DNA of 64,000 nt from Spirochaetaceae bacterium (GTDB taxonomy: Bacteria; Spirochaetota; Leptospiria; Leptospirales; Leptonemataceae): NCBI GenBank assembly GCA_002729885.1, contig PBUB01000008.1, positions 62,001-126,000 on the forward strand, written 5' to 3'. The notes under the pieces are model-generated. The model was not told the origin of the DNA, searched no databases, and was given only the letters and a program-made list of their open reading frames with translations. The translations under genes were made by a program, and so were the position numbers. Below, one piece after another: positions 26,265-51,802 of the stretch (the stretch's first letter is position 1; each line of letters begins with the position of its first letter).

Positions 26265-27416
26265 ATGGAAAGATCTGGATACGACTATGCAATCCTGGGA
26301 GCAGGCGCCATCGGCTGCTACACCGGAGGCTGGCTGGCAAATAGGGGCCACTCCGTCTTATTTGTAGGTAGACCATCCATTCTGGATGTACTGGCCAGCC
26401 AGGGATTGGCTCTTGAGTCGGTGGAGGGTAAGAAATCTACTGTACCTACGTTTCCGCTCCAGAAGGCAGAATCCTCCATTCCTGCGAATACTTCCGAAGC
26501 AGATTCAGTGGCCAATGGTTCCGAACCTGATTCCGTAGGCGATGGTTCCGGGGAAGCGGCCTCCATTGGACTTACGGAATCTCCATCCGATCTGGCAAAA
26601 TGTAAAACCATACTTGTATGCGTCAAAAGTGCATCCACCGATGAAGCCGCCGCCCAAATTCGAGAGTATGCTCCTCATGGCTCCGCTGTAATCTCATTAC
26701 AGAATGGACTGGGGGCCGCCCGAATTCTAAAAGAGAATCTACCGGATCACAGGGTGTTTGCAGGGATGGTAACCTATAACGTGGTGCGAGAAGGGAATCA
26801 TTTTCGTCAATCCACCTCCGGTCCCATAACTATTGAATTACCGCCGGATGCCGCCCTGGCACAAACTGCCCGGGCCGTAGCTAACGATCTGAACGAGTGT
26901 GGGATTCAAGCCTATCTACGTTCAGATATGCAAAATGTGCAGTGTAGCAAACTACTTCTGAATCTGAATAACGGCATCAATGCCCTGGCAGGTATTCCCA
27001 TTCGAGAAATGCTTTCTGATCGAAAATACAGAAGGATTATCGCTGCCTGCATGAAAGAAGCCATACAGATCTATAAATCGGCCGGAATCAAGATGGTGAA
27101 GCTTGGAAAAATTATTCCTGGCATCGCTCCTGCGGTTCTGAAGTTGCCTGACTTTCTTTTCTTTCGCGTCGCTTCAACCATGATCAATATTGATCCTACG
27201 GCCATGACATCCCTGGCTCAGGATCTAATTGCAGGTAAGAAAACGGAGATTGACTTTTTAAACGGAGAGATTGTTCGCCTGGCCCGGTCCAGGGGACTTA
27301 AGGCGCCCATTAACTCTGCTGTGGTGCAGCTAGTGAAGGATGCAGAAGCTACCGGACAGGGCTCTGCTCGAATGGATCCAGAAGCGATGGCTCGCGCTCT
27401 GGGTCTGGAAAGCTAG
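26265..27416 (+). CDS. panE: 2-dehydropantoate 2-reductase (ApbA/PanE family)
   Basis: YAILGAGAIGCYTGGWLANRGHSVLFVGR; VCVKSASTDEAAAQIREYAPHGSAVISLQNGLGAARILKENLP; SKLLLNLNNGINALAGIP. Confidence 0.85.
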   Translation: MERSGYDYAILGAGAIGCYTGGWLANRGHSVLFVGRPSILDVLASQGLALESVEGKKSTVPTFPLQKAESSIPANTSEADSVANGSEPDSVGDGSGEAASIGLTESPSDLAKCKTILVCVKSASTDEAAAQIREYAPHGSAVISLQNGLGAARILKENLPDHRVFAGMVTYNVVREGNHFRQSTSGPITIELPPDAALAQTARAVANDLNECGIQAYLRSDMQNVQCSKLLLNLNNGINALAGIPIREMLSDRKYRRIIAACMKEAIQIYKSAGIKMVKLGKIIPGIAPAVLKLPDFLFFRVASTMINIDPTAMTSLAQDLIAGKKTEIDFLNGEIVRLARSRGLKAPINSAVVQLVKDAEATGQGSARMDPEAMARALGLES

Positions 27417-30582: not shown

Positions 30583-31743
30583 TCAGGGAACCAGTAGTCT
30601 GGTGCTTTTTTCGGCCAGGCGAATCTGAACGGTGGTGCCGGAGTTAAACTGCATAAAATCTTCCAGCATTCCGTCGGAAAAGACAACTCCTCCCTCGGGC
30701 ATATGACTTTCCAGAATCAGTTCCTGGGATTCTCCAATCTCACCGGCTACAATATCCGCTCCGCTCCAGTTGCTGCGAAAGGGTTCTCGAACCATAAAGA
30801 TCAGCTTTCTGGCTTCCCATTGCATTGCACCAGGGGAAACCCCGTGGTTGGAGGTTCCGGAGCCATTGCCAGAAGTATCCATTCCTTTCTTGTTTTCGCC
30901 GCTACTTTTCTTTGTCCCGGGCGATTTATTGATGGGGAGCTTTCTGGTTCTTACAGATGGAGAACCGCTGGCGAAATCCTGGATGCCTGCTGCCATGTTG
31001 TACAAGGAAGAAAGCCAGCCGGTACTTCCGGCCGGAGTGCTAACAATGACTCCGCTGGAACTATGCCTTTCGCTGGAGTCGCCGAAGCGAAGCGTGTACC
31101 GAGCGCTAACATGCGAATCGGCTCCAATAAAGAAATCATTAAATGCATAAAGATGCTGTCCGTCGTTTAGATCGGCTCTGGCCATGGAAATGCTGCGACT
31201 TCCAAGCTTTCCTTCCAGAGTCTGTCGAATTACGGCTACCGCACTGTGCCAGATAAAGGGAAGCAATACACCATCGAATCTTTCTGGATCCGGATTGAAT
31301 GCCAGCACCGGCTGACCTTCCAGATATTTGGCGGTATTTACCACCAGTCCATCCTGGCCCAGTGGCATCGCCAGATCTCCAGGACCAAAGAGAAAATTGG
31401 GAAGCATGGTTCGGTCAATGACCTGAAAGCGCATTTCAGAAGGAATGCTTCTTACCAGGGCATCTCTGGCTCTCTGGTAGTTATCATACTCGGTAACATA
31501 GTCATCGAAGGATTGACCGCGACTTTCAACGAAATACTTCGCCTGACTGATGGTATTGAATCGCTTTATACTTTCTTCCAGTCTGGTCTGTCGGGTAATT
31601 ACAATTATCTTTTCGATATTCAGGTTCTGCGCATGGGATGAATCTGCATCTCCAGGGGAAGGCTTCGCAGCTTTCTTTTTTCGTTCTGGAACCATGAAAT
31701 TACTTCTGTTTTCGCGACTACTATAGTTTGCCGATATTTCCAT
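30583..31743 (-). CDS. NAD kinase-like fold protein
   Basis: LGQDGLVVNTAKYLEGQPVLAFNPDPERFDGVLLPF and SSGVIVSTPAGSTGWLSSLYNMAAG. Confidence 0.72.
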   Translation of the reverse strand: MEISANYSSRENRSNFMVPERKKKAAKPSPGDADSSHAQNLNIEKIIVITRQTRLEESIKRFNTISQAKYFVESRGQSFDDYVTEYDNYQRARDALVRSIPSEMRFQVIDRTMLPNFLFGPGDLAMPLGQDGLVVNTAKYLEGQPVLAFNPDPERFDGVLLPFIWHSAVAVIRQTLEGKLGSRSISMARADLNDGQHLYAFNDFFIGADSHVSARYTLRFGDSSERHSSSGVIVSTPAGSTGWLSSLYNMAAGIQDFASGSPSVRTRKLPINKSPGTKKSSGENKKGMDTSGNGSGTSNHGVSPGAMQWEARKLIFMVREPFRSNWSGADIVAGEIGESQELILESHMPEGGVVFSDGMLEDFMQFNSGTTVQIRLAEKSTRLLVP

Positions 31744-44754: not shown

Positions 44755-46155
44755 ATGGTCCGAAAGTGCAACACAGACTTCGCATCTGTTAATAGAAGCC
44801 TGCAGGCAGGCCTTCGAAAGGGGAATGAGTTGGGAGCAACAGCAAGGGAACTGGATTCAGATATTTCGGCAGAAGCAAAGCCTTCCCGCAAAGGGATGAA
44901 GTTAAAGCCCACCGGGCCCGGACCGGGGAAGAGGGCCCCTGGATCCAGAGCTGCAAAGAAGGAGCAGATCCTATCGGATAATACCTACAAGGCATCTGAT
45001 GTTCCGCTAACCATAGGGGAGCTCTGGACTTCCAGGCAGCGCCAGATGCATCCCATCCATTATACTGTGAGCTATCGGGCCAGCTTCAAGCCGGAGCTTC
45101 CAGACTACTTCATAAAGAGATATCTTTCGGATAAGAAAAAGGCTCTGGTGCTGGATCCTTTTGGAGGTCGCGGAACTACCATCATCCAGTCCAATTTAAA
45201 CGGCTTTTCTGCCATCCACAATGATCTGAGTCCCATCGCAAGCTTTCTGGGTCGCGCCAGACGTCGTATTCCTGATCTCGCAGAGCTTGAACTCCGGCTC
45301 GACGAAATCCAGCTATCTTCAAAGAAGAGCAATGTCTCTGATGAGGATTTTCTTAGACTGGAACCATTCTTCCATGAAAAGACCATCCATGAGATCCACA
45401 ATCTACGTCAGATGCACCTGGATAACCCGGATGATTCGGCCCTTTCCTATATCGCACTCACTGCTCTGTCCCGTCTTCACGGACATTCCGATGGATTCTT
45501 TTCTGTATATTCCTTTCCGCAGATCTCCATCATGCCAGATGCCCAGAGAAAGAATAATCGTAAGCGAGGACTGACTCCCGAATACAAGGCCGTCAAAGAG
45601 AGAATCCTCAAGAAGATGAAGCGGGACCTGGCTCAACCACTGCATCCTTCGTTCAACAGAGCTGCAGCGAATAATCGTTATCTTTCCTGTGATGCAACAG
45701 ATCTCAATGGAATAGAAACATCTTCGGTGGATCTAATTGTTACTTCTCCTCCATTCCTGGACAAGGTAGACTACAAGAAAGATAACTGGATGAGAGCCTG
45801 GTTTCTGGGCGTGGAAGATCGTATGGATGAGCTTCCGCTGGCCATATTCGCTCGGCTGGAGCAATGGAAGGATTTTATGCGAGAGGCCATCCGGGAATTC
45901 GGACGCGTGCTAAGACCAGGGGGACACGCTGTGATCGAAGTAGGTGAGGTGATATCCGGAAATCAGCTCATCCTTCTGGAACGGGAAATGGCAGAGATGC
46001 TTCCGCTGGAAGTTCGTGGAGGAGGCCGAGTGGTGGCCCGGGAAATATGCATCAATCAGCAGGAATTCACAAAGCTTGCGAACTGCTGGAAAGTCACAAA
46101 CAATTCCAGAGGCACAAACACCAATCGCTGTCTGGTAATTCAGAAAGAAGGCTGA
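44755..46155 (+). CDS. SAM-dependent DNA methyltransferase (N4-cytosine/N6-adenine type)
   Basis: Motif I-like VLDPFGGRGTTIIQSNLNGFSAIHNDLSP; motif IV-like VDLIVTSPPFLDKVDYKKD; RVLRPGGHAVIEVGEV. Confidence 0.8.
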   Translation: MVRKCNTDFASVNRSLQAGLRKGNELGATARELDSDISAEAKPSRKGMKLKPTGPGPGKRAPGSRAAKKEQILSDNTYKASDVPLTIGELWTSRQRQMHPIHYTVSYRASFKPELPDYFIKRYLSDKKKALVLDPFGGRGTTIIQSNLNGFSAIHNDLSPIASFLGRARRRIPDLAELELRLDEIQLSSKKSNVSDEDFLRLEPFFHEKTIHEIHNLRQMHLDNPDDSALSYIALTALSRLHGHSDGFFSVYSFPQISIMPDAQRKNNRKRGLTPEYKAVKERILKKMKRDLAQPLHPSFNRAAANNRYLSCDATDLNGIETSSVDLIVTSPPFLDKVDYKKDNWMRAWFLGVEDRMDELPLAIFARLEQWKDFMREAIREFGRVLRPGGHAVIEVGEVISGNQLILLEREMAEMLPLEVRGGGRVVAREICINQQEFTKLANCWKVTNNSRGTNTNRCLVIQKEG

Positions 46156-46172
46156 AATTCGGAGCGCCGGAG

Positions 46173-46410
46173 CCCCAGGTTCGGGTAAAAGCGCGCTGGT
46201 CGTTTTAAGTCGAACCGGCTCCCGGCTGAGCGGGGGGAGTTCGGGTAAATGCCTGCGTGGCGCTATAAGTCGAACTGACCCGTGGCTGAGCGTCGGGAGT
46301 TCGGGTAAATGCGTGCTGGTCGCCATAAGTCGAACCGGCTCCGGGCTGAGCGGCGGGTCGGGTAAAAGCGTGCTGGGCGCCATAAGTCGAACCGGCTCCC
46401 GGCTGAGCGG
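46173..46410. repeat. Tandem repeat array A, 4 units of 57-60 bp
   Basis: Consensus GTTCGGGTAAATGCGTGCTGGTCGCCATAAGTCGAAC + CGGCTCCCGGCTGAGCGG; unit starts at 46179, 46239, 46299 and about 46356. Confidence 0.9.
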
Positions 46411-46533
46411 CCCCGAAGTATGGAGCGTCTTTACTCTGGTCCGTCGGCTCCAACGAAGAGTGCCACAAAATTATGTCCCGGCAAACCCTACCTTTATTCT
46501 AATTTTTCTTCAGATAAGGCCGATGCTGATGAT

Positions 46534-47331
46534 ATGTTAAGATCTCTCTGGACTGCAGCTACAGGCATGATTGCCCAGCAATATCACATGGACACGATTT
46601 CCAATAACCTGTCCAATGTGAACACAACAGGTTTTAAGAAGAATCGGGCTGATTTTCAGGATCTGGTTTATCAGCAACAGGTACTGGCTGGAACTCCTGC
46701 CACTGCTGTAAGCGAAATCCCCACGGGAGTCTATGTTGGACACGGAACCAGAGTGGCCGCTACTCAGAAGCTCTTCGAAATGGGTAGTTTGCAATCCACC
46801 GGAAACAAGTTCGATATGGCCATTACTTCGGAGGTAGGATTCTTCAAAATCCTTATGCCGGATGGAAGCTTTGGCTACACCAGGGATGGATCCTTCAAGA
46901 TTGATTCAAATCAGCAGATTGTAACTTCTAACGGATATCTGCTGGAGCCTCCCATTACCCTACCTCCCGGCGCTATCAATAATTCTTTGCAAATCAGTGA
47001 GAACGGAGAGGTTACTGTTAAGGTAGGGGATGATATTCGACCTACAAGAATCGGCCAGATTGATCTTTACAGGTTTGTGAATCCTGCGGGTTTACAGGCT
47101 ATCGGGCAGAACCTTTTCAAAGAGACTGTTGCTTCCGGGCCGGAGATCCAGGGAACTCCAGGGCTGGATGGTATGGGCTCCATTCTACAGGGCTTTCTGG
47201 AAATGTCCAATGTGAAGCTAGTAGAAGAAATGGTGAATATGATTGTTGCTCAACGTGCATATGAGTCGAACTCTCGGGCCGTAATGACGTCTGATTCTAT
47301 GTTGGGCACAGCCATATCCATGAAGCGCTAA
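46534..47331 (+). CDS. flgG: Flagellar distal rod protein FlgG
   Basis: MLRSLWTAATGMIAQQYHMDTISNNLSNVNTTGFKKNRADFQDLVYQQ...VEEMVNMIVAQRAYESNSRAVMTSDSMLGTAISMKR. Confidence 0.96.
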   Translation: MLRSLWTAATGMIAQQYHMDTISNNLSNVNTTGFKKNRADFQDLVYQQQVLAGTPATAVSEIPTGVYVGHGTRVAATQKLFEMGSLQSTGNKFDMAITSEVGFFKILMPDGSFGYTRDGSFKIDSNQQIVTSNGYLLEPPITLPPGAINNSLQISENGEVTVKVGDDIRPTRIGQIDLYRFVNPAGLQAIGQNLFKETVASGPEIQGTPGLDGMGSILQGFLEMSNVKLVEEMVNMIVAQRAYESNSRAVMTSDSMLGTAISMKR

Positions 47332-51464: not shown

Positions 51465-51775
51465 GAGGTTCGCCTAAACACGCTGGGACGATGCAAATGC
51501 GAACTCACTGGGGGTGACTACTAGAAGAAAGTGCGGAGGTTCGCCTAAACACGGGGGACGGTGCAAATGCGAACTCAGTGGGGTGGCTGCCAGAAGAAAG
51601 TGCGGAGGTTCGCCTAAACACGGGGGACGGTGCAAATGCGAACTCAGTCGGGTGGCTGCCAGAAGAAATTGTGGAGGTTCGCCTAAACACGCTGGGACGG
51701 TGCAAATGCGAACTCAGTGGGGGTGGCTGCCAGAAGAAAGTGCCGATGTTCGCCTAAACACGGGAGGAGCACGTA
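51465..51775. repeat. Tandem repeat array B, 4 full units of 69-71 bp plus a truncated fifth
   Basis: Units GAGGTTCGCCTAAACACG(C/G)NGGGACGGTGCAAATGCGAACTCAGTGGGG(T)GGCTGCCAGAAGAAAGTGCG at 51465, 51536, 51605, 51674; partial at 51745. Confidence 0.92.
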
Positions 51776-51802
51776 AAACCGCACTGGACGTGGTGGCCTG
51801 GA

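Follow-up and report, generated by a model that had tools for sequence, protein, structure and literature searches.

A family of 37-bp two-ended DNA elements, probably protein docking sites, is confined to one genus of marine Leptospiraceae

Short repeats in bacterial genomes are mostly accounted for as hairpins that a transposase has spread. In sopC-type centromere arrays, tandem units of about 43-70 bp carry an inverted box pair, as do the elements described here, and in true recombinase core sites the arms flank 6-8 bp. According to PMC3733652, one end of a REP/BIME element is tagged with GTAG or CGTC. The 37-bp elements share with REP/BIME elements a short length, palindromic ends, about 100 intergenic copies and occurrence as singletons and clusters, and with dif/loxP-type core sites a pair of inverted arms, each about 10-13 bp long, around a variable middle. 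A likeness to integron attC sites was also found: the genus has a resident cassette array, whose inner box CTTCGCTTAAAGAC agrees with the half-site of the elements (p 3.4e-5 per position). However, unlike REP/BIME elements, the 37-bp elements have an exact length, a free interior and conserved loci; unlike attC sites, they show neither folded-stem conservation nor cassettes. Unlike sopC-type arrays, they are dispersed over about 20 chromosomal loci with no partner par genes nearby, and unlike dif/loxP-type sites (6-8 bp), they have a middle of 15-17 bp, many tandem copies and stable flanking gene order.

The window, i.e., the whole 64-kb stretch of DNA that was analysed, contains two arrays of these elements, A and B. 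Array A, reported in an earlier note, exists with the 37-bp core boundaries given there, the fourth core starting with GGTCG, and its coordinates and spacers were confirmed; those boundaries proved central to understanding the element. It consists of four 37-bp cores at 46179-46392 with periods of 60, 60 and 57. Tandem Repeats Finder reported 46179-46410 with period 60, 3.9 copies and 81% matches; calling the units "near-identical" was generous at that level of matching. The features of the window referred to below are as follows.

44755-46155, + strand: N6/N4-type DNA methylase gene (PF01555, E 6.5e-11)
46179-46215: array A element 1, GTTCGGGTAAAAGCGCGCTGGTCGTTTTAAGTCGAAC, 0 mismatches to GTTCGNNTWAW-N15-WTWANNCGAAC
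46216-46238: array A spacer, 23 bp
46239-46275: array A element 2, 0 mismatches to the same pattern
46276-46298: array A spacer, 23 bp
46299-46335: array A element 3, 0 mismatches to the same pattern
46336-46355: array A spacer, 20 bp
46356-46392: array A element 4, left end GGTCG, 1 mismatch to the same pattern
46393-46410: array A tail, CGGCTCCCGGCTGAGCGG
46500-46524, + strand: sigma-28-like site TAAT-N15-GCCGAT, a pattern match between array A and the flgG ATG
46534-47331, + strand: flgG, first of the rod/ring gene run (PF22692, PF06429, PF00460)
51468-51784: array B, five elements at 51468-51504, 51539-51574, 51608-51643, 51677-51713 and 51748-51784

The methylase stop codon ends 23 bases ahead of array A element 1. 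The pattern GTTCGNNTAAAN{8,28}CGAAC has seven matches in the window, where 0.01 would be expected; three are in array A and four in array B. Array B, which the earlier note leaves unmentioned, lies past the flagellar genes and has the core boundaries of array A but another middle; two of its elements are 36 bp long and the last is degenerate. Only repeat-derived ORFs were seen across array A, in agreement with the earlier proposal that it is non-coding. A separate 27-bp tandem repeat (2.2 copies) was observed at 26492-26550.

No other whole copy of array A was found in its genome. However, many copies of the 37-bp core were found in that genome and in relatives, and these rule out local replication slippage as the sole account of the array. 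With two mismatches allowed, the symmetric pattern GTTCGNNTWAW-N15-WTWANNCGAAC gave 66 sites in this genome and 33, 134, 35 and 12 in the other congeners, against 0, 1, 0, 3 and 0 in the same order for the reversed-pattern control. In 17 other family genomes the counts were at chance level (0-3 sites, control 0-3). An asymmetric pattern gave 86 matches in this genome with three mismatches (reversed control, 2) and, with one mismatch, none in 36 relatives outside the genus. A scan of 84,980 species with the exact pattern gave, apart from the congener Leptospiraceae bacterium SP332, a single match in Enterococcus; this lone match is fewer than the roughly seven expected by chance for 18 fixed bases. 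No element was found in the viral contigs scanned, and literature searches found no account of this element family. The 37-bp elements are thus a real, previously undescribed family confined to one genus of marine Leptospiraceae.

The consensus element, GTTCG-NN-TWAW-N15-WTWA-NN-CGAAC, is two-ended and exactly 37 bp long. Arm pairs with no more than one mismatch were tallied for each spacing of 22-89 bp across the fetched loci (about 522 kb): 147 were found at 37 bp and at most 2 at any other length between 22 and 82 bp; a small rise at 84-89 bp comes from the arms of adjacent units. The array-weighted half-site is GTTCG-nn-TWAW with less pronounced preferences for A/G (position 13) and C (position 14), and the inverted half-sites extend weakly to about 14 bp. 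Between arrays, identity is 87% in the GTTCG boxes and 94% at the T.A positions, against 32% in the interior. Similarly, arrays at orthologous loci in different species have arms of 0.89-0.98 identity and interiors of 0.24-0.70. The 15-bp interior differs from array to array and is alike within an array, and its GC skew tracks that of the flanks (rho 0.70, p 1.5e-5), as unconstrained sequence would. The spacers between elements are not constant across the family (about 10-34 bp). Selection would act on the two boxes and on their distance; fixed ends and length with a drifting middle form the footprint expected when a protein recognises a pair of boxes a given distance apart.

The arms look polar (TAA/TTA), and this polarity follows strand GC skew. 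A directionality of the elements was rejected, as only a weak bias (18/28, p 0.18) was left after the arrays had been masked and orthologues dropped. We read the arm polarity as a mutational strand bias, since the interior composition follows the skew strongly. A CRISPR array was also rejected as a class, as the repeat interior varies and the spacers within an array are themselves repeats.

Because the arms can pair, the elements could in principle be a structured RNA, or could serve the neighbouring genes as a terminator or 5' UTR element. Core 1 does fold better than its shuffles (z -2.67), but the other cores do not stand out (z -0.98 to 0.01), nor do the units or the whole array (z -1.0 for the array), and a search of the window against Rfam gave 0 matches above the gathering score. 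Among 198 distinct elements there are 139 departures from the GTTCG/CGAAC box pairs, of which 137 are one-sided and none is compensatory, which suggests that the boxes are read singly as double-stranded DNA and not as an RNA stem. No terminator or sigma-70-like site was predicted at 46100-46600, and the elements have no orientation relative to genes; an assignment as terminator or operator was rejected for the same lack of orientation bias and of a predicted terminator. An RNA role is therefore highly improbable. As judged from the sequences, the elements are double-stranded DNA with two half-sites and not an RNA hairpin.

The earlier note had proposed that array A is the 5' regulatory region or an insulator of the flagellar genes. 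However, a sigma-28-like site lies downstream of the array, the neighbours of other arrays are unrelated, the elements have no orientation preference, and folding of the unit and the whole array, suggested there as a check, gave no conserved structure. The site TAAT-N15-GCCGAT, which we take to have the sigma-28 promoter form, is a predicted one; it is placed alike ahead of flgG in the congeners G002, G003 and G004. With one mismatch allowed, the sigma-28-like pattern occurs 10 times in the window against 7.8 by chance, which is no excess, so the support for the site comes from its position and conservation. The sole other exact TAAW-N15-GCCGAT in the window, at 31117-31141 (- strand), is a possible second sigma-28-type promoter. 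Since the predicted promoter is downstream of array A, its flgG transcript would omit the array, and array A is neither leader nor 5' UTR of flgG if the site is indeed the promoter. A 5'-leader role is not supported, and neither is a flagellar regulatory role specific to array A. From its upstream position, the array may have an architectural effect on flgG.

The wider genomic placement is likewise not specific to flagellar genes. Nearly all sites (199/200) are intergenic, and the array-bearing gaps are convergent, co-directional and divergent in the same proportions (13/27/11) as other gaps (50/93/47), i.e., without any gene-orientation preference. The elements adjoin unrelated genes, including bioA-like, serA, ssb, nrd, rtcB, lysS and others; these housekeeping names are presumptive, mostly given by reading the sequences and in a few cases by Pfam. 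The arrangement of methylase, array and flgG has 4 units in this genome (G000), 10 in G004, 1 (degenerate) in G003 and 1 (38 bp) in G002, whereas other genera have the gap between methylase and flgG but no element in it. Five further sets of orthologous array loci were found: G000:C2 with G001:C4; G000:C19 (7 units) with G004:C15 (1 unit); G000:C28 with G001:C17 and G004:C9; G000:C25 with G001:C20; and G000:C33 with G003:C94 and G004:C16. Interiors were clearly more alike than those of random arrays in 4 of 9 orthologous comparisons. The comparison used loci fetched for carrying arrays, so that the proportion of loci that are conserved is a minimum and subject to ascertainment. Shared loci with differing units and interiors indicate that the loci are old while unit number and interior turn over fast. 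Array size changes, but the family stays in place.

Spread of a short REP/MITE-type repeat, selfish or neutral, by an unspecified transposition route would account for a dispersed, intergenic, genus-specific family of about 100 copies, and for the two near-identical arrays at G000:C28, one on each side of a 1961-aa gene, which look as if one had been copied. The elements also fall within the usual REP/BIME limits of 20-40 bp, high copy number and extragenic position (37 bp, 66 copies, 199/200 intergenic). However, the copies share arms and length and not the interior, whereas copying of whole elements predicts otherwise, and their positions are conserved between species. The hairpin is not kept by compensation (0/139), the oriented consensus GTTCG...CGAAC lacks a GTAG/CGTC end tag, and the Y1 (RAYT) transposase PF01797 was found in 0 of 7 genomes searched, although controls were positive in 5 of 14. 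We consider this origin unlikely. Less probable still are centromere- or iteron-like tandem sites of a ParB- or Rep-type protein, which are suggested by the internal inverted boxes of the tandem repeats, reminiscent of plasmid sopC. Such sites do not agree with about 20 loci instead of one or with an arm unlike parS, and the genus shows no expansion of ParB-domain proteins (3-5 matches against 3-6 elsewhere).

We therefore turn back to the reading of the elements as protein docking sites, which they probably are, and to the type of protein. The half-site was scored against known motifs, using for dif the consensus printed in PMC5993296 and for the others textbook motifs. The best score was with the XerC arm of E. 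coli dif (position-corrected p 3e-4), and the element arm is close to that arm, GTGCGCATAA. Weaker values were obtained for loxP (0.015), cer (0.03) and B. subtilis dif (0.048), with the lambda core within 0.015-0.048. FRT (0.24) and attI1 (0.12) do not stand out, so the resemblance to recombinase arms is not universal. Six non-recombinase motifs (parS, LexA, Fur, CRP, ArgR and matS) all gave p above 0.2. A search for a chromosomal dif for arm comparison gave nothing convincing, the sole syntenic match being at a gene start. A tyrosine-recombinase ancestry of the elements is plausible.

The same resemblance raises the possibility that the elements are working or recent recombination sites of an Xer/integron-type recombinase (XerC or the XerA-like enzyme of G000:C22), the arrays having arisen by site-specific exchange. 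The half-site resembles Xer/Cre arms, the interiors are alike within and unlike between arrays, as expected of an overlap region, the XerA-like gene and cassette array have degenerate elements beside them in both G000 and G004, and the C35/C11 arrays contain chimaeric left and right arms. However, the inverted arms of recombinase type are not 6-8 bp apart: TWA to TWA is 17 bp in nearly all copies, about one helical turn more, and the element therefore does not have the geometry that a recombination core site requires. The genes flanking the arrays on either side keep their order across species, and no rearrangement through arrays was seen. There is no cassette-like cargo between elements, the tandem paralogues at G004:C13 being an ordinary duplication, and the XerA/integron-type recombinase, intact, also occurs in G006 and G009, both without elements. 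Active recombination at these sites is thus doubtful. An assignment to attC was rejected on the outer boxes, which are RYYYAAC/GTTRRRY in attC and GTTCG/CGAAC in the element; G004:C20 does carry separate attC-like sites, with GCCTAAC/GTTAGGC.

The genus encodes XerD, a XerC-like protein, the XerA/integron-like enzyme and several other tyrosine recombinases. In addition, a degenerate tyrosine-recombinase-like gene was found at the following positions.

G000:C8:7239-7934 (L161:4240-4935): degenerate tyrosine-recombinase-like gene
L162:5274-5969: the same gene in a congener
L163:5572-6360: the same gene in a congener
L164:3698-4384: the same gene in a congener

It encodes 228-262 aa, lies immediately upstream of what we take from its sequence to be mfd in 4 of 4 congeners tested, and is 52-82% identical among them. 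No close relative was found among the recombinase loci of three other-genus genomes, and a search of plasmids gave no match. All four proteins match PF00589 (E 4e-16 to 7e-12) and lack the usual N-terminal core-binding domain. From the R-K-H-R-H/W-Y set of an active recombinase they keep the second Arg and the Tyr, whereas the first catalytic Arg is replaced by Gln, the first His by Ser/Thr and the last His by Phe/Tyr. A first model from four sequences (pLDDT 39) was replaced by one with pLDDT 77.4, whose best PDB matches are XerA (E 5e-8, TM 0.6); its alignment included true Xer rows, which favours an Xer-fold result. The model suggests that the protein keeps the catalytic-domain fold. No element adjoins the gene. 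Because of the co-occurrence (four genomes versus three) and the arm resemblance, this protein is our first candidate binder of the elements.

Taken as a whole, array A is probably a local tandem amplification of one genus-specific, 37-bp bipartite double-stranded DNA site read by a putative trans-acting protein. We infer that a protein binds the elements. It would contact both half-sites, probably as a dimer, on about the same helix face, as the outer boxes are 32 bp apart, or about three turns. Unequal exchange would grow, shrink and homogenise the arrays, and selection via the binding protein would maintain arms and spacing. Tentatively, the binder may be a tyrosine recombinase of Xer/Cre type that does not recombine but decorates the chromosome or has an architectural role; the first choice is the catalytically degenerate homologue encoded upstream of mfd. 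The full scenario, in which a catalytically dead, domain-reduced tyrosine recombinase was repurposed as a chromosome-decorating protein and Xer-type half-sites too far apart to recombine were amplified at conserved intergenic loci, is rather unlikely. If the link to the degenerate recombinase were true, it would exemplify the conversion of a recombinase to a structural DNA-binding protein.

Several further observations were made at these loci. At G000:C28, near-identical arrays at 148210-148487 and 154792-155149 (L125) lie on either side of the 1961-aa GAF/cyclase gene, as if duplicated. At G004:C13:66.5-70.3 kb (L073:6500-10300), a small coiled-coil membrane protein is encoded by tandem paralogues, and each intergenic gap contains elements. 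At G004:C20:37605-41533 (L142:3606-7534) and G000:C22 (L113:1-2221), a XerA/integron-type recombinase gene precedes a cassette array whose attC-like sites are long (GCCTAAC...CTTCGCTTAAAGACGTACGTTAGGC), and degenerate 36-37-bp elements lie between the recombinase gene and the cassettes. The contig G000:C1 (L150, 16046 bp) repeats exactly with a period of 11,056 bp, as expected of a circular plasmid of ~11 kb assembled past its start, and carries a tyrosine recombinase and a ParB-domain protein. Finally, a further short recurrent motif, GACATAAT, occurs in the same intergenic regions in G002 (L138) and G003 (L041).
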